Assembly: GCF_007993755.1 (NCBI RefSeq)
Contig: NZ_CP042467.1
Location: forward strand, 4,984,001-5,048,000
Length of the DNA stretch: 64,000 nt
DNA from: Microvenator marinus
GTDB taxonomy: Bacteria > Myxococcota_A > Bradymonadia > Bradymonadales > Bradymonadaceae
Direction of reading: 5' to 3'
Shown here piece after piece: positions 6,567-17,442 of this stretch. The notes beneath the pieces are model-generated. The model was given only the letters and a program-made list of their open reading frames with translations. It did no database searches and was not told the origin of the DNA. Each line of letters opens with the position of its first letter. Position 1 is the stretch's first letter. A program made the position numbers and the translations under genes.

Positions 6567-8606
6567 TTAGGGACGCTCTTCGGGTCTAGGTGTTTGCACG
6601 GAGTGCTTGAGCAATTCGGGGTTAGACGATGAGTTCGAGACTTCCTGGTGGTTTAGCCACCACTCTTCGGCATGATGGGCTGTCCAAAGGCCATGCGCTT
6701 TGCAGGTGTGAAGCCTGGAGAGAATGGATGTCACGCTTTCCGGGCGCGAATCCTGCTCCTGACTGAGGCACTGCATGATGAGTTTCTCAAGGTCTTCGGG
6801 AACGTTCTCGTTCAGCTTTTCGGATGGCAAGGGCGGCGGACCATCCTTTTGTTGGGCAAAAATGCTGGCCCGCGACGTGCCCTCGTAAGCGGGTCTGCCG
6901 CTGATCATCAGATAGGCCAGAGCACCGATGGCGTAGATGTCCGCGCTCGGACGAGGGCGGTAGCCCATGGCGGCCGCTTCTGGGGCAATATAGCCGGGCG
7001 TACCCATCAGGCGTGTGCTCTTTCCCGGAGAAATCTCCGCATCCACTTCTTTGACCAGACCGAAGTCCAAGACCTTCACGAAGTCGTAAGACGAGCCGCG
7101 ATGGGCCAAAAAGACGTTGTCGGGTTTGATGTCTCTGTGAATAAAGCCCTTGGCGTGCGCCTCTTCAAGCGAGCCACAGACTTGCTCCAGAATGTGGATC
7201 ACGCGCTCCGCGGGCATCGGCCCCGAACGTTCCACAACTTCGCCAACCGTCGCACCTTCCAAGTACTCCATCGCAAAAAAGAGCGTTTCGCCTTGTGTGC
7301 CAAAATCGTAGACGGTCACGGTGTTTGGGTGCGTCAGGCTGGCGGTCACTCTGACTTCGTGTTTAAAGCGCTCGCGGGTTTTCCGGTCTCGGGTATCCTT
7401 GATGACTTTGAGCGCTGTAATCCGTCTCAGCGAGCGATGCTCAGCCAGACAGACCTCGCCTGCGCCTCCAGTCCCGATGACCTTTCCGAGCACGTAGGCC
7501 CCGAGTCGGTTTTTGTCTTGTTTGGGCGCGTCCGGAATCTTCAAACGTCGGTAGAGAAGCAATGCGATGCCCAAGATTGCGGCGAGTAGTATTCCCAGCC
7601 AAATGAACTGAGAAGGGGCGTCGGGGGAGAAATCGGAATCAGGCGCTGCCACCACGATCCAAAGCCGCGTTGTGCCCATTTCAAATGGTCGGGTGACAGC
7701 CCACCACGCCTGCCCGTCCGAGTGAAACGAAAATGCACGGGTTCCGCTACCCTTCCATGCGCGGTTAAGCGCGTCGTTCTCCAGCTGGTGAAGGGGTTTG
7801 AGGAGGTACTCCTGTGGGTTGGCGCCGTTTGCAACAGACGGCAGCCCTATCACCGTACCTTCTTCCGTGAGCAACACCGCGATCCCGTTTTCTCCAATTT
7901 TCATCGTCGACGTGAACGCCGAGAGATCTTTGAGCATGACGTCGAACGCCACGACCATAGTGGTGCCGTCACTGGTCTTCAGACGAGAAGATACAGTCAT
8001 GCCGACGTCCCGCGTGGTGAAGAAGATGTAGGGCTCGGTCCAGTGGGGTTCTCCCTCAGGATGCTCCATTGCGCCCCGAAACCATGGGCGGAGACGGGGG
8101 TCGTACTCGAGCTCTTTGGTCCACTCCTCGACGGGTTCAAGGTCGTTGTTCCACCTAAACCAGCGTGTCGTCTTACCGTCTTCGGCCACGTCCACCCTGC
8201 GGTTGACCCACGTTCCTTTGTCGTTGAGCAGCATATACTCACGACCATTCTCGTCCGCGATGAGCATGGATGTGATTGGCGTGTGCCGGGCCAGAAGCGG
8301 GATAAAACGTCGGTTTAACTCCTCGGTGTTGTCGAGCTTCACCTCACCACCCTTGGTCCAATCGTGCGTGACCAAAAGGTTATCTTGCAAGGGACGGAAA
8401 AAGGTATGAAGCTTGGCCTGTGCGAGTTCTGCAGAACCATCTAAAGATTCTTCAGAGAGTTTCTCAACCGCTTGAAATGACGAATAATAAAAGATGAACG
8501 CAACCATAGCCATCGCAAGCGCACCTATGCCCACAAGGGACGTGAGTAGGTACTGCTTGGGTGGAGAAGGTGTATCCATAACCAAAAGGGCGTTCCGAAT
8601 CGTCAT
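6567..8606 (-). CDS. Membrane Ser/Thr protein kinase with extracytoplasmic Cache-like sensor
   Basis: About 679 residues. An N-terminal transmembrane helix (about 20-42) is followed by a roughly 290-residue extracytoplasmic region whose features (paired strands, YIFFTTRDVGMTVSSRL, VVAFDVMLKDLSAF) resemble dCache sensor domains. A second helix (about 338-358) leads to a cytoplasmic Hanks-type kinase domain (about 370-640). The domain has the glycine loop GTGGAGEV, the VAIK-type lysine (ALKVIK), HRDIKPDN catalytic loop, DFG and APE motifs, so it should be active. It phosphorylates Ser/Thr in response to a periplasmic ligand. The start could be TTG 8612 or ATG 8606, both within a short divergent spacer with the acyltransferase gene. 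The stop lies 6 bases from the convergent surface-protein gene. Confidence 0.88.
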   Translation of the reverse strand: MTIRNALLVMDTPSPPKQYLLTSLVGIGALAMAMVAFIFYYSSFQAVEKLSEESLDGSAELAQAKLHTFFRPLQDNLLVTHDWTKGGEVKLDNTEELNRRFIPLLARHTPITSMLIADENGREYMLLNDKGTWVNRRVDVAEDGKTTRWFRWNNDLEPVEEWTKELEYDPRLRPWFRGAMEHPEGEPHWTEPYIFFTTRDVGMTVSSRLKTSDGTTMVVAFDVMLKDLSAFTSTMKIGENGIAVLLTEEGTVIGLPSVANGANPQEYLLKPLHQLENDALNRAWKGSGTRAFSFHSDGQAWWAVTRPFEMGTTRLWIVVAAPDSDFSPDAPSQFIWLGILLAAILGIALLLYRRLKIPDAPKQDKNRLGAYVLGKVIGTGGAGEVCLAEHRSLRRITALKVIKDTRDRKTRERFKHEVRVTASLTHPNTVTVYDFGTQGETLFFAMEYLEGATVGEVVERSGPMPAERVIHILEQVCGSLEEAHAKGFIHRDIKPDNVFLAHRGSSYDFVKVLDFGLVKEVDAEISPGKSTRLMGTPGYIAPEAAAMGYRPRPSADIYAIGALAYLMISGRPAYEGTSRASIFAQQKDGPPPLPSEKLNENVPEDLEKLIMQCLSQEQDSRPESVTSILSRLHTCKAHGLWTAHHAEEWWLNHQEVSNSSSNPELLKHSVQTPRPEERP

Positions 8607-8681
8607 TTTCAATAGGCCTGATCATATCTATGTCTCAGAACCTTGTCCAAGTGTAGTTTTTTGCGCGTTGCGGAGTGCGAT

Positions 8682-12191: not shown

Positions 12192-12692
12192 ATGATTAGA
12201 CCCCCTGGGCGCCGAGTTTTGATTCTTGCTCTGGTGATGACCGCGGCTTCCGTGTTGACCGCCTGTAGCGTGTCGGTCGCGGGAGGTGTTGGTGGGCTCG
12301 GTTTGACGCTCTTATTGGTCGGTCTCTTTGCGTTCCAAACTACACAATCCGGTTGTGCCGACGATGATGACAAGGACCCGGACGTGGGCCCCTGTCTAAG
12401 CATTGAATACGACATGGGCTGGGACCTCGCCGAGGACATGGAAGATGACGCCTATGTGGGCCCATGCCTGAGCCCGCCGCCCCCGGATATGGGCGAAGAC
12501 GCCAATCAAGATATGGAAGACGATGCCTCCATAGGTCCTTGTTTGAGCATGCCTCCACCGGATATGAACGAGGACATGCAAGACGCGGATATGGCGCTAA
12601 AGCCCGCGTCTGACAAAGCTCAAATCTTGGCCAAGCTTGAGGCGGACCTGCCCGCAGATGTTCTAGAGCGTCTCAAGAACCGGAAAGCCTGA
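12192..12692 (+). CDS. Asp-rich lipoprotein-like peptide with three GPCLS motifs (candidate radical SAM substrate)
   Basis: 166 residues from ATG 12192, preceded by a GGAGTTAGG ribosome-binding site; the longer frame from 12090 has no such site. A basic, hydrophobic N-terminus ends in lipobox LTAC (Cys25), followed by a second glycine-rich hydrophobic stretch (31-48). From residue 55 the chain is very acidic and carries GPCLS three times, at 66-70, 90-94 and 115-119 (24-25 residue period), the last two followed by PPPP/PPP-DM. A charged helical tail (136-166) ends the protein. The repeated Cys-centred motif, and the single-base TGATG overlap with a SPASM radical SAM gene, suggest it is the substrate of the enzymes downstream. 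This is inference, and a plain small lipoprotein is the alternative. Confidence 0.65.
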   Translation: MIRPPGRRVLILALVMTAASVLTACSVSVAGGVGGLGLTLLLVGLFAFQTTQSGCADDDDKDPDVGPCLSIEYDMGWDLAEDMEDDAYVGPCLSPPPPDMGEDANQDMEDDASIGPCLSMPPPDMNEDMQDADMALKPASDKAQILAKLEADLPADVLERLKNRKA

Positions 12693-13771
12693 TGGGCATT
12701 CTCGACGCCTTTTCAAAACCAAAAAATGTCACGATACCTCGGCTCGACCTTGAACTTACAACGGGTTGTGACCACGGCTGTGGGCACTGTTACAACGTCT
12801 GGGGCGCCAAAGATTCGGATCCACAAGGTGGCTACAAGAAGGGCTCACTTCGCACCGACGAATACCTCAAGATGTTGGACAAAGTTGTTGGGCAAACGGG
12901 TGCTGAGCACATCACCGTGACCGGTGGTGAGCCGCTTCTACACAAAGGTGCGCTTGAGATCATTGAACGTGCATGTGCGCTGGTGAAATCAGTCCAGCTC
13001 ATCACTAACGGTAGCCATATCACGCCTAAGATCGCCCAGCGATTCAAGCAAGCGGGTTTGCGCTCGGTGCAGCTTACGCTTTTGAGTGCCAAACGCGCTC
13101 GACACGATATGCTTAAGGGCTCGGTTTGTTTTGATGATACGGTGAGAGCGGCGCTGGACCTCAAGGATGCGGGTGTTCCCGTGCAGGTCTGCTTCGTGGC
13201 CATGCAAAAGAATTGGGAGGAGTTCGAAGACGTATTCGAGCTCGCGTACGTCCTTGGCGTAAGGGCGATTTCGTACAATCGCATGTCTCCCACGGGCGGC
13301 GCCGTTCACCATATCAACCAGCTCTTGCCTACCGTGGAACAAGTCGAGCACAACTTGATGACAGCCGAGAGACTAGGTCCTCAGTATTCGATCCGAGTTT
13401 CCACTGCCATGCCGATTCCCCCGTGTCTGATTCGAATGGATCGGTTTAAGTGGTTTGATTTCGGGTTTTGCAGCACCGGTACTCATTCACCCAATATCGT
13501 GGTGGATCCTTCGGGAAATATCCGTTCCTGCAACCTTTCGAGCGGCATTCTAGGCAATATCGTGGAGGAGGATTGGCCTCAGGTTTACGAGCGGGTCCGG
13601 TCCTATCAAGATACGTTCAAGCGCGAAGTGCCTGAGGTTTGCCGGGGTTGTCGCTACGAGACGACCTGTCAAGGAGGGTGCAAGGAAAGCGCCTTTGCGA
13701 CCTTCGGCTCAACCACTCATCCCGAGCCCTTCCTCTACCAAGCCCAAAATCCTGGGTGGCCCAGTGCGTGA
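12692..13771 (+). CDS. Radical SAM/SPASM domain protein (candidate peptide-modifying enzyme)
   Basis: This 359-residue cytosolic enzyme has a radical SAM cluster motif CxxxCxxC at Cys26, Cys30 and Cys33 (TTGCDHGCGHCYN). The TGGEPLL motif follows (about 78), with the rest of the partial TIM barrel to about 240. A C-terminal SPASM-like region (about 255-335) carries cysteines in CSTG, SCNLS and CRGCRYETTCQGGC, which would hold auxiliary iron-sulphur clusters. SPASM enzymes of this size often modify ribosomal peptides by thioether, C-C or epimerisation chemistry, or mature a partner enzyme. The start codon overlaps the preceding stop by one base and the stop overlaps the next gene, so translation is coupled. 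The likely substrate is the GPCLS protein just upstream. Confidence 0.85.
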   Translation: MGILDAFSKPKNVTIPRLDLELTTGCDHGCGHCYNVWGAKDSDPQGGYKKGSLRTDEYLKMLDKVVGQTGAEHITVTGGEPLLHKGALEIIERACALVKSVQLITNGSHITPKIAQRFKQAGLRSVQLTLLSAKRARHDMLKGSVCFDDTVRAALDLKDAGVPVQVCFVAMQKNWEEFEDVFELAYVLGVRAISYNRMSPTGGAVHHINQLLPTVEQVEHNLMTAERLGPQYSIRVSTAMPIPPCLIRMDRFKWFDFGFCSTGTHSPNIVVDPSGNIRSCNLSSGILGNIVEEDWPQVYERVRSYQDTFKREVPEVCRGCRYETTCQGGCKESAFATFGSTTHPEPFLYQAQNPGWPSA

Positions 13772-15857
13772 CCCTTGTGTGCTTCTCATCTCACCGGGGA
13801 TTTTGAAGTGGACGGACATGGATTTTGGCCTTCCACATCTGGTCTCGGTGGGCGGGTTTCTGCAGCACCATTTGAATATCCGTGTGGAGATTTTGGACCT
13901 GAACTTCGAGGGCGGAGACCATACGCAGCTCGCGAAAACACTGGAGGAGCTAGGGCCGTTCTTGGTAGCCGGGATCTCGTGTTACTCGAGCTTCGACTAC
14001 ATGCGAGTCATGAGCCTCGGGCGGTTTTTTAAGACCTTGTATCCAGACGTGCCGTTGGTGACCGGCGGATATCACGCGAGCGCTCTTCCCGGCGATGTGA
14101 TCTTTGATGGCTCCCCGTTTGACGCGGTGATTCCTGGTGAGGGCGAGCAGTCGATGCTGCAGATCGTGCGGGGATTATTGGGCGGAGGGCGGCTCGAGCA
14201 TCAGATTTACCCAAAAGAGGTCGTGCCTTGTATGGACGAGCTTCCGCCCTATAAATGGGAGCTTCTCGAGCGCTACTGGCCGCGTGCGCGCGATATCGGT
14301 CGTAAATTCCAGATCTATTTGTCCCGAGGATGTCCGTATCACTGCACGTTTTGTATGGAGCGCTCCAAGAGCGGGTATCAGTGGCGCGCATTTAGCTCAG
14401 AGCGTGCCGTGGACGAGCTCAAACGACTCTCGACCTTCACACCCCTCGAACACTGGGTCATCAATCTCGCCGACCCATTGTTTGGGTTTAAGCGGAGCTG
14501 GCGCCGCGAAGTCTTGGAGGGGATTATCGAGAATAAGCTCTTCCCGAGGCAGTATTGGACTCTGACTCGGTCCGACGACCTCCAAGAAGAAGACGTTGAG
14601 CTCCTCGCGCGTGCTCGGTTTTCCATAGGCATCGGCATGGAGAGCGGTAGCCCCGAAATGCTTGGGATCATGCAAAAGGTGGTCAAGCCCGAGCGCTACC
14701 TCGAAGCCCAGCTAAGACTTGCGCGGCTGAGCCGAAAACACGGGCTAAACTGGGCGGGGAATATCATCGTGGGGCATCCCGGCGAGACCCTTAAGACGAT
14801 GACGGAAACGCGGGATTTTGCGCGGGAGCTCTTCACTTCCGCATCCGATACGTGTGGCTGGCTCTCGCTCGATCCGTTTCGCCTCTATCCCGGCTCGCAC
14901 GTTCACGAAAATATGGATGAATATCAGGCGAAATACGGCACCCAATTCTACCATAAACGCTGGTGGACGAGTTGGTATGACGGTCCGTTTCGTGCCGAGC
15001 ATTTGGACGCGAGTTCGTCAGTGGATTTCGAGACCCGCGTGCGATTTATGTACGAGCATTTTGCGCCTCTGATGCGAGATATTCTTGGGAAATTTCGAGG
15101 GCAGGGGAGAAGCGTAGACCGTGTGTTCCAACGTTCTTTGGCCGAGCAGACCGACCTGCTGAGTGACCGAATGCGTGATGTCATTATTCGCAAAGCCAAA
15201 TGGACGCGTGAGCGCCTGCCGGCGGACCCGGTGGATGCCGCGATATCTGGGGCGAGCATGCTTTCGGTACCGATTGGACTGCACGTCAAGGACCCGGCGA
15301 TTCGGGCGCGTGAAGAGGCTGTAAGACGCCTTCTGGAAAACGGCACGCTCAGGTCCGACCGTGTGATCGAAGCGTTTTTGAGCGTTGGTCCACACGAGTA
15401 CATGCCCGAGGTTCGTGCCCGTGAGATGTTGCGCGGCAAAACCGAGTTGCCTGAGGTTGAAGGGGCGCCCGGTGTGCTCAGTGTAGATGCCTACGCGATA
15501 GGGCTGGAGGCGCTGAACCCGGGGCTTGGAGAGTGTGTGTCTGATCTAGCGCCCGTGAATGGCTATCTAGGTGCTTTGCTGAAGATTCTGGTGGGGGCCG
15601 AAGGCGTGGTGGATTCAGGCGCAACCGGGGCCTACGACTCGCTCTTTCTGGGGGCTGCTATGCCCCTAGTCCCAAAGCGCCTTCTGGAGAAACTCCGCCA
15701 TCAAGGGCGTTTTGTAGGCTTTGTGGGGCCAAGGTTTCGGCCCCAAGACATGGTTTGCTTGACGCGTCATGATGATGAGTGGACCGAACGCCTCTTGGCG
15801 AAGGTTCGTGTACCGGTGCTCGCCGGGCCAAACGGTTGGCTGAAGAAGGCGGGCTGA
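13764..15857 (+). CDS. B12-type radical SAM enzyme fused to a PCMT-like (isoaspartyl methyltransferase) domain
   Basis: About 697 residues from GTG 13764, overlapping the previous gene by 8 bases; the frame is open further upstream to 13695. Residues 1-130 resemble a cobalamin-binding Rossmann domain without the DxHxxG motif. A radical SAM domain follows with CxxxCxxC at about 190, 194 and 197 (SRGCPYHCTFC) and extends to about 430. The last 180 residues match protein-L-isoaspartate O-methyltransferase in order: VIEAFLSVGPHEYMP, the strand before NGYLGALLKILVG, YDSLFLGAAMPLVP, GRFVGFVGP and the 'VRVPVL' end. The usual EIGTGSGY SAM-binding loop is altered to DLAPVNGY, so methyltransfer may be lost or changed. 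The fusion suggests action on the Asp-rich protein encoded two genes upstream. Confidence 0.82.
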   Translation: MRDPCVLLISPGILKWTDMDFGLPHLVSVGGFLQHHLNIRVEILDLNFEGGDHTQLAKTLEELGPFLVAGISCYSSFDYMRVMSLGRFFKTLYPDVPLVTGGYHASALPGDVIFDGSPFDAVIPGEGEQSMLQIVRGLLGGGRLEHQIYPKEVVPCMDELPPYKWELLERYWPRARDIGRKFQIYLSRGCPYHCTFCMERSKSGYQWRAFSSERAVDELKRLSTFTPLEHWVINLADPLFGFKRSWRREVLEGIIENKLFPRQYWTLTRSDDLQEEDVELLARARFSIGIGMESGSPEMLGIMQKVVKPERYLEAQLRLARLSRKHGLNWAGNIIVGHPGETLKTMTETRDFARELFTSASDTCGWLSLDPFRLYPGSHVHENMDEYQAKYGTQFYHKRWWTSWYDGPFRAEHLDASSSVDFETRVRFMYEHFAPLMRDILGKFRGQGRSVDRVFQRSLAEQTDLLSDRMRDVIIRKAKWTRERLPADPVDAAISGASMLSVPIGLHVKDPAIRAREEAVRRLLENGTLRSDRVIEAFLSVGPHEYMPEVRAREMLRGKTELPEVEGAPGVLSVDAYAIGLEALNPGLGECVSDLAPVNGYLGALLKILVGAEGVVDSGATGAYDSLFLGAAMPLVPKRLLEKLRHQGRFVGFVGPRFRPQDMVCLTRHDDEWTERLLAKVRVPVLAGPNGWLKKAG

Positions 15858-16609
15858 TGAACATTGAGTTTAGAGCGCCTTTGCACGCCCAGCTCTACTA
15901 CGAGGTCCTTAGTCTGATTGACCTTGGTCAAGACGCCGCGAACCTCTACCGCGGCAAAAGCGCCGCGTGGTCTGAAGAATTGGCTTCCCTCTTCAACGTG
16001 CCTGGCGCGATTTACCTTCACGGAATCCCGCTTTGGACGCGTGACCTTGAGCACTTGTTTGCGGCATTGGAGAAGGGTTTTAGACCGCTGGATACACACG
16101 AGAGTCGCGTGCTTCGGCAAAGGCTCCAAGACGTCTTGAACGACGTGGCAGCAGGGTTCGATCACGAGGACCTACCCGCGTTAAGCCTTGAGTTAGAGGA
16201 GTTAGACGCGTTGCGCCAAAAGCTTTGGAGCGAGGCCGCACCACCACTAGAAGTGTGGCACATTCCAGCATTGGGGGACGGCCAGTTCACTCATGGGCGC
16301 GCAATGTCTTTGAAGTCAAAAAGGGTGGTGGCCGTCTCTCTCAATGTGGCTCCGGAGCAGGCGCTCGTGCAGATTATCCACGAGGACACGCACGCGCTCA
16401 CCGACCCGCCTATTCGTCTGGAGTTTGGTGGTGCCCAAGAGACCCGTCGCGGCTCCAGAGGACACGCGCTCCATAAACGCCTTGAGTCCGCCGTTATTGC
16501 CAACAACCTCGCCCTCTTTGAAGAACATGCGCCGCAGCTTTTGCCGGCTCTTGAGAAGTGGTGTGATTGGTATGGAGTTAGTTCCCCGCGTCGGGGCCAG
16601 ACTCCATAG
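15857..16609 (+). CDS. HExxH-motif protein, putative zinc metallopeptidase
   Basis: 250 residues from ATG 15857, which shares one base with the preceding stop (TGATG); an in-frame start at 15779 would lie inside the previous gene and is ignored. No signal peptide. The segment IIHEDTHALTD places a HExxH zinc-binding motif at residues 175-179, and a downstream LHKRLESAV (about 210-215) could supply the third ligand glutamate. The rest is helical and not recognised. As the last gene of the cassette, it may be the protease that processes the modified product, or a non-proteolytic family member. The 3' end overlaps the convergent gene by 32 bases. Confidence 0.6.
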   Translation: MNIEFRAPLHAQLYYEVLSLIDLGQDAANLYRGKSAAWSEELASLFNVPGAIYLHGIPLWTRDLEHLFAALEKGFRPLDTHESRVLRQRLQDVLNDVAAGFDHEDLPALSLELEELDALRQKLWSEAAPPLEVWHIPALGDGQFTHGRAMSLKSKRVVAVSLNVAPEQALVQIIHEDTHALTDPPIRLEFGGAQETRRGSRGHALHKRLESAVIANNLALFEEHAPQLLPALEKWCDWYGVSSPRRGQTP

Positions 16610-17349: not shown

Positions 17350-17442
17350 ATCGTGACATGAATCGCGACAAATCGCGACATTTCTGGATGAAATCGCGAC
17401 AAATCGTGACATTCTCTGATGGAATCGCGACATATCGCGACA
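17350..17442. repeat. Seven phased copies of ATCGYGACA
   Basis: Nine-base units ATCG(C/T)GACA start at 17350, 17362, 17372, 17393, 17403, 17424 and 17434. After the first copy the steps are 10, 21, 10, 21 and 10 bases, so pairs of sites 10 bp apart recur every 31 bp, all in one orientation. Five copies are ATCGCGACA and two (17350, 17403) are ATCGTGACA. The array lies between the 3' end of one minus-strand gene and the 5' end of the next (16578-17216). The helical phasing suggests a cooperative protein-binding site (operator), but an iteron or mobile-repeat origin is possible. Confidence 0.8.

Follow-up and report, generated by a model that had tools for sequence, protein, structure and literature searches.

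A two-radical-SAM cassette of Myxococcota predicted to modify Pro-Cys-Leu repeats of exported, probably lipid-anchored proteins

Four overlapping genes in a 64,000-nucleotide stretch of the Microvenator marinus genome (the whole of it hereafter called the window) very probably form a cassette composed of one substrate and its dedicated modifying enzymes, in which two cytoplasmic radical SAM enzymes would modify exported proteins, probably lipid-anchored ones, at their xPCL sites. The observations behind this explanation are the linkage of the genes, the conservation of a motif and of a C-terminal tail in the substrates, the loss of a SAM-binding motif in one enzyme domain, gene fusions and the co-occurrence of precursors and enzymes. 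All four genes lie on the forward strand: the gene of the precursor, or substrate protein (12192-12692; ATG at 12192, TGA at 12690-12692, 166 aa), which is present in a single copy in its genome; that of a SPASM radical SAM enzyme (12692-13771; ATG at 12692, 359 aa); that of a B12-binding radical SAM enzyme with a degenerate PCMT-like C-terminal domain (13764-15857; GTG start, 697 aa); and that of a HExxH protein (15857-16609; ATG start, 250 aa). The preliminary description had reported four genes joined by overlaps of 1-8 bases, and a new reading of the coordinates bears this out, with overlaps of 1 base (precursor/SPASM), 8 bases (SPASM/B12) and 1 base (B12/HExxH). The cassette is well beyond chance, since other, distinct loci of the phylum Myxococcota repeat both the gene order and the motif, and in them GPCL is found again and the linkers are not. 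A transporter, an immunity gene and a named peptidase were looked for within the cassette, and none was recognised. Elsewhere in the window, a short tandem repeat with a 31-base unit (2.6 copies, 88% matches) is located 3' of the cassette at 17361-17442, and a 681-aa open reading frame on the minus strand (6567-8612) reads, in translation, as an extracytoplasmic sensor-like N-terminus followed by a Ser/Thr protein kinase-like domain.

Relatives of the cassette were collected by a pattern scan of 84,980 species genomes, which gave 15 loci, and by a protein search of 379 Myxococcota genomes, 41 of which contain the B12 enzyme at E <= 1e-60; apart from the single pattern scan of all species genomes, the sampling is that of the window's own phylum. 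The B12 enzyme is present in roughly one ninth of the sampled Myxococcota species genomes. Group I includes 22 distinct loci, among them that of the window, with a B12 enzyme identity of about 51-62% (tblastn mapping), and the gene order precursor-SPASM-B12-HExxH is found in nearly all of them; in L015 the precursors are located downstream instead. Group II, the sister branch, consists of 24 loci, each from one genome, with a B12 enzyme identity of about 33-42% (tblastn mapping). There the SPASM gene adjoins the B12 gene in nearly all loci where the contig allows it to be seen, and an adjacent HExxH gene is absent. When a tree is built from the B12 and radical SAM domains, group I comes out as a single clade (support 98/95), with L065 as a long-branched neighbour. 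In two group II loci (L068 and L073), mutually alike open reading frames of 240-255 aa stand directly 5' of the SPASM gene.

The preliminary description had proposed a RiPP-like cassette with an exported or lipidated substrate, and its genomic context agrees with the proposal. Enzymes regularly lacking a GPCLS protein were looked for, and what was found is a PCL protein within the cluster in all 19 assessable group I loci, window included, with one to three precursors per locus (L006, L013 and L063, cut by contig ends, are left out of this count), and within a few kilobases in 16 of the 24 group II loci. The eight group II genomes that have no precursor nearby all contain unlinked homologues detected by profile search, the best E per genome ranging from 5e-10 to 1e-21. 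At E <= 1e-6 the unlinked matches are ten in G236, nine each in G283, G103 and G072, seven in G326, four in G193 and one each in G342 and G260, so that five of the genomes examined have 7-10 strong unlinked matches each. A leader and at least one motif were seen on individual reading in 17 of the 20 unlinked loci retrieved (not in L120, L129 and L132), and several unlinked group II precursors look, by reading, orthologous between genomes. When the open reading frames around 14 unlinked group II precursors were read, no recurrent partner function was recognised. In L139 (3411-4208) a 265-aa group II precursor-like protein has a Cys-containing C-terminal extension past an ICLS motif.

Sampled genomes without the enzymes also lack the precursors. 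In 12 Myxococcota genomes without the enzyme pair, the precursor profile gave nothing better than E = 0.013. With the group I profile, 15 of 16 genomes having the enzymes were positive, versus none of 16 controls below E 0.05, a co-occurrence that is to be read as an association without a formal test, because the controls were picked for having no match to the B12 enzyme and are not phylogenetically paired. The system presents a ribosomally made precursor, a conserved recognition element, a variable and repeated core and linked modifying enzymes, as expected of a RiPP-like system.

The precursor of the window begins as a bacterial lipoprotein does, with a signal sequence ending in a lipobox Cys (VLTA-C), and the predicted lipidation Cys is codon 25 (12264-12266), assigned from the lipobox pattern only and visible in both the sequence and the precursor alignment. 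A second hydrophobic segment and the sequence TQSGC follow, and then three GPCLS motifs in Asp-rich linkers, recognised in the sequence and in the alignment: VGPCLS at 12387-12401, VGPCLS at 12459-12473 and IGPCLS at 12534-12548. The protein closes with the tail ILAKLEADLPADVLERLKNRKA (12624-12689), which includes LPADVLERL. VLTAC-like lipoboxes are present in the other precursors with two hydrophobic segments, and it is only among these that the lipobox is convincing; further precursors, apart from those of group II, start with a short 'LPPSLLVALGLAGC'. The second hydrophobic stretch of the window precursor (12282-12344) comes soon after the lipobox Cys and, should this stretch be membrane-spanning, the repeats could remain cytoplasmic. 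Signal-peptide precursors are unusual among RiPPs. Searched against Pfam and NCBIfam, the precursors gave no match over a cut-off, and the search for a second precursor in the window's genome gave one weak match, which is devoid of the motif.

What is conserved among the precursors is the pair Cys-Leu. From the first motif on, Leu follows Cys in 183 of 189 cysteines (44 precursors, 32 loci), a figure partly selected for, because the precursors were located by a motif search near the enzymes; the profile searches with controls are the cleaner test. In group I the Cys is mostly preceded by Gly-Pro (76% of the motifs have G at -2 and 82% have P at -1), in group II by Pro-Gln-Pro/Val, the motifs there being of the QPCLSPP type; the residue after Leu is most often Ser, and a single precursor may contain up to 10 repeats. 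Gly is not essential, since in L048 and L060 the motifs have drifted to QPCL, ACLD and VCLS. As for the linkers, they are Asp-rich in the window and Ser/Thr/Gly-rich in other precursors, so Asp is not the conserved element. Of the "Asp/Cys peptide" with GPCLS motifs in the preliminary description, the Cys-Leu, usually preceded by Pro, is retained among the relatives, and the Asp-rich character of the linkers is not.

Two further elements distinguish the branches. In group II the leader has the form ILARRxxFVAAALAG...C, with L10, R12, R13, A20 and L21 invariant in 14 sequences; it appears Tat-like and is perhaps also a recognition sequence, since its conservation exceeds what a Tat signal needs. 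In group I the C-terminal tail, LP.D[VIL] in its core and LPxDVxxRL in its longer form, is found in 27 of 27 precursors, versus none of the 15 ordinary group II precursors. A variant of the tail, LTE(E/D)Q, occurs in the intermediate L065, whose contig stops before any HExxH gene could show. This distribution, together with L061, in which the tail is present and the pseudo-PCMT domain is absent, indicates that it is the HExxH protein, rather than the pseudo-PCMT domain, that the tail accompanies. A resemblance of the tail to the domain's first helices was noted (hhalign about 86%, the highest among 147 segments); docking of the tail on the domain is only a lead, given that L061 keeps the one without the other.

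Both radical SAM enzymes can be assigned to their superfamilies. The SPASM enzyme matches Radical_SAM at 9.8e-27 and has a SPASM C-terminus, for which PF13186 remains below its cut-off. The cysteine pattern is that of the SPASM maturases, with an invariant CX3CX2C (C26, C30, C33) and a C-terminal set (C245, C260, C280, C317, C320, C326, C330) invariant in 15 homologues. Searched against NCBIfam, it reaches no equivalog cut-off of a named maturase, the best being NirJ2 with 117.8 bits against 500. The second enzyme has the order of a cobalamin-dependent radical SAM enzyme, that is a B12-binding domain (1.3e-7, just under the cut-off) and then a radical SAM domain (2e-16) with the CX3CX2C cysteines C192, C196 and C199 invariant; in NCBIfam it is far below all named-family cut-offs, and its placement is at the level of the superfamily. 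Its structure model (mean pLDDT 69) was considered of insufficient quality for a fold search.

From these elements the following course of events can be proposed. The precursor would be made with an export-type N-terminus and, before export, the SPASM and the cobalamin radical SAM enzymes would act on its [G/Q]-P-C-L-[S/D] repeats in the cytoplasm, the modification falling most likely at or beside the Cys of each repeat. The SPASM enzyme might, for example, introduce a thioether or another Cys-derived change, and the B12 enzyme might carry out a C-methylation. The product is not readable from the sequence, because the reactions of B12 radical SAM enzymes go beyond methylation. In group I, the HExxH metalloprotein would take the place that a catalytic PCMT domain has in the sister branch and would work together with the B12 enzyme, probably docking on, or cleaving at, the LPxDVxxRL tail. 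The modified protein would then be exported and lipid-anchored, and not released as an antibiotic. Alternatively, the Cys could be a free metal ligand or a disulfide partner, the true target being the neighbouring Pro, Leu or Ser. A Cys-to-Asp thioether as a general rule was ruled out, because some motifs have no Asp nearby. A broader form of the proposal, towards which the evidence leans slightly, is that a single SPASM and B12 pair acts in trans on the xPCL[S/x] repeats of exported proteins that form a dispersed family, and that one branch has exchanged the PCMT domain for the HExxH protein, a new C-terminal tail of the substrate accompanying the exchange.

The nature of the HExxH protein is the point at which the proposed explanation may be refined. 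Its motif is HEDTH (H175-E176-H179), and in 11 homologues these three residues do not vary, nor do D183, T196, H206 and E210; in seven loci (L010, L011, L012, L013, L059, L060 and L061) it shares one reading frame with the B12 enzyme. No usable match was obtained in Pfam, NCBIfam or the PDB sequences. Its AlphaFold model has high confidence (pLDDT 90); with it, no Foldseek match attained E <= 0.001, and the weak matches are zincin peptidases (PprI, M61). The preliminary description was right to include a HExxH protein in the cassette; it may be a processing protease, but comparison with named families, PDB sequences and folds gave no confident match, and it is fused to the B12 enzyme in the seven loci. 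A tentative refinement, to which we give rather less than an even chance, takes it as an oxidative enzyme that would hydroxylate or cleave the precursor, as ChlH and PflC/PosC do, and not as a hydrolytic protease. The fusion recalls the arrangement of ChlB, and in PflC/PosC a C-terminal motif is both the recognition and the cleavage site (PMC12636437); here the HExxH protein and the tail go together. However, none of the 11 HExxH members matches TIGR04267 or another NCBIfam model, hhalign against 19 TIGR04267-family sequences gives a probability of 0.1%, and ChlH is not among the Foldseek matches listed (50 of 209), although its structure (8s5f) is in the PDB. With profile, hhalign and listed fold matches all negative, no kinship to the alpha-KG-HExxH hydroxylases (TIGR04267) was detected; the mode of action may, by analogy, be similar. 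Members of TIGR04267 (loci L095-L114) are present in 32 of 141 sampled Myxococcota genomes and absent from that of the window.

The same protein is central to another explanation, in which the cassette would be a classical secreted RiPP and the PCL repeats would be cores excised by a HExxH protease as small bioactive peptides. In favour of such a system are the repeated cores between variable linkers, the loci that in some genomes hold two to three precursors, and the HExxH protein within the operon, but the cassette lacks an exporter, an immunity gene and any recognisable peptidase family, HExxH is absent from group II, and a covalent link between a protease and a radical SAM enzyme would be odd. 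Moreover, the apparent orthology of several unlinked group II precursors does not suit a fast-evolving antibiotic. A secreted RiPP is therefore improbable, and the modification of anchored proteins remains the preferred explanation.

The least tenable alternative concerns the PCMT-like domain. In group II the domain is complete (in L070, PF01135 at E = 1.7e-35, residues 512-703), with an intact SAM motif, VDLGAGSGYG, and an acidic residue following strand 2. In the B12 enzyme of the window the match (6.8e-7) covers only the last third of the PCMT family. None of the group I sequences read that have the domain retains SAM motif I (DLLA-TRGY, DLTA-RSGY; in the window DLAP-VNGY), the acidic residue at the end of strand 2 has disappeared from all group I sequences read, and the window protein and several group I homologues also lack the stretch following motif I. 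In L061, the earliest-branching member of group I, there is no PCMT domain, and HExxH comes directly after the radical SAM part. A group II B12 enzyme (L087, from G260) has a frame that ends about 496 residues past the start of the match and lacks a PCMT domain. With its SAM-binding motif gone from all group I homologues read, the domain is unlikely to carry out aspartimide chemistry in the branch of the window; in group II it may do so. The PCMT-type aspartimide or isoaspartate formation that the preliminary description had suggested, here on the Asp-rich linkers of the window protein, must consequently be regarded as very improbable, even though the domain is detectable and PIMT-like enzymes form aspartimides in RiPPs (PMC13001092), for the conserved residues are Cys-Leu and not Asp, and L004, L079 and L081 include motifs that have no Asp nearby.

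The cassette offers a tractable case of radical SAM enzymes that would act on exported, probably surface-anchored proteins, and not on secreted antibiotics. In some species one enzyme locus apparently serves several scattered substrates, and the swap of a methyltransferase domain for a metalloenzyme, accompanied by a changed substrate C-terminus, would represent a natural experiment on the gain of new chemistry. In the open-access literature searched, no paper on this modification system was found, and its parts can be compared with several known systems. Like the SPASM maturases PqqE, mycofactocin maturase, SkfB and ScmE/F, the SPASM enzyme has the radical SAM core, the SPASM cysteines and a small-protein substrate encoded next door, but it falls short of every NCBIfam equivalog cut-off and its substrate motif is new. 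The B12 enzyme shares B12-binding and radical SAM domains with CX3CX2C with TokK, the tryptophan C2-methyltransferase, AprD4 and the TIGR03975 RiPP C-methyltransferases, and differs from them in its fused C-terminal PCMT-like or HExxH domain and in scores far under all family cut-offs. The full PCMT domain of group II, with its intact SAM motif, recalls the PIMT/PCMT-type RiPP methyltransferases (the FxLD system and the aspartimide formers); here, however, it is fused to a B12 radical SAM enzyme and is degenerate in the window's branch. With the alpha-KG-HExxH hydroxylases, fused to radical SAM in ChlB and with cleavage at a C-terminal motif possible in PflC/PosC (PMC12636437), the system has in common a HExxH protein that works with, and is fused to, a radical SAM enzyme and perhaps the recognition of a C-terminal motif, whereas sequence and listed folds show no similarity. 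Finally, the bufferins and Buf_EGKCG-oxazolins are MNIO-modified, Sec-exported RiPPs whose precursors have signal peptides and in some cases are lipoproteins; the likeness lies in long exported precursors, repeated Cys motifs and precursor genes often unlinked to the enzyme locus (PMC12452194). The bufferins differ in their MNIO and DUF2063 partner, in place of which SPASM and B12 radical SAM enzymes are found here, in their motif, and in having neither the tail nor the exchange of PCMT for HExxH. By analogy, the system appears closest in logic to these Sec-exported bufferins, with different enzymes and a different motif.
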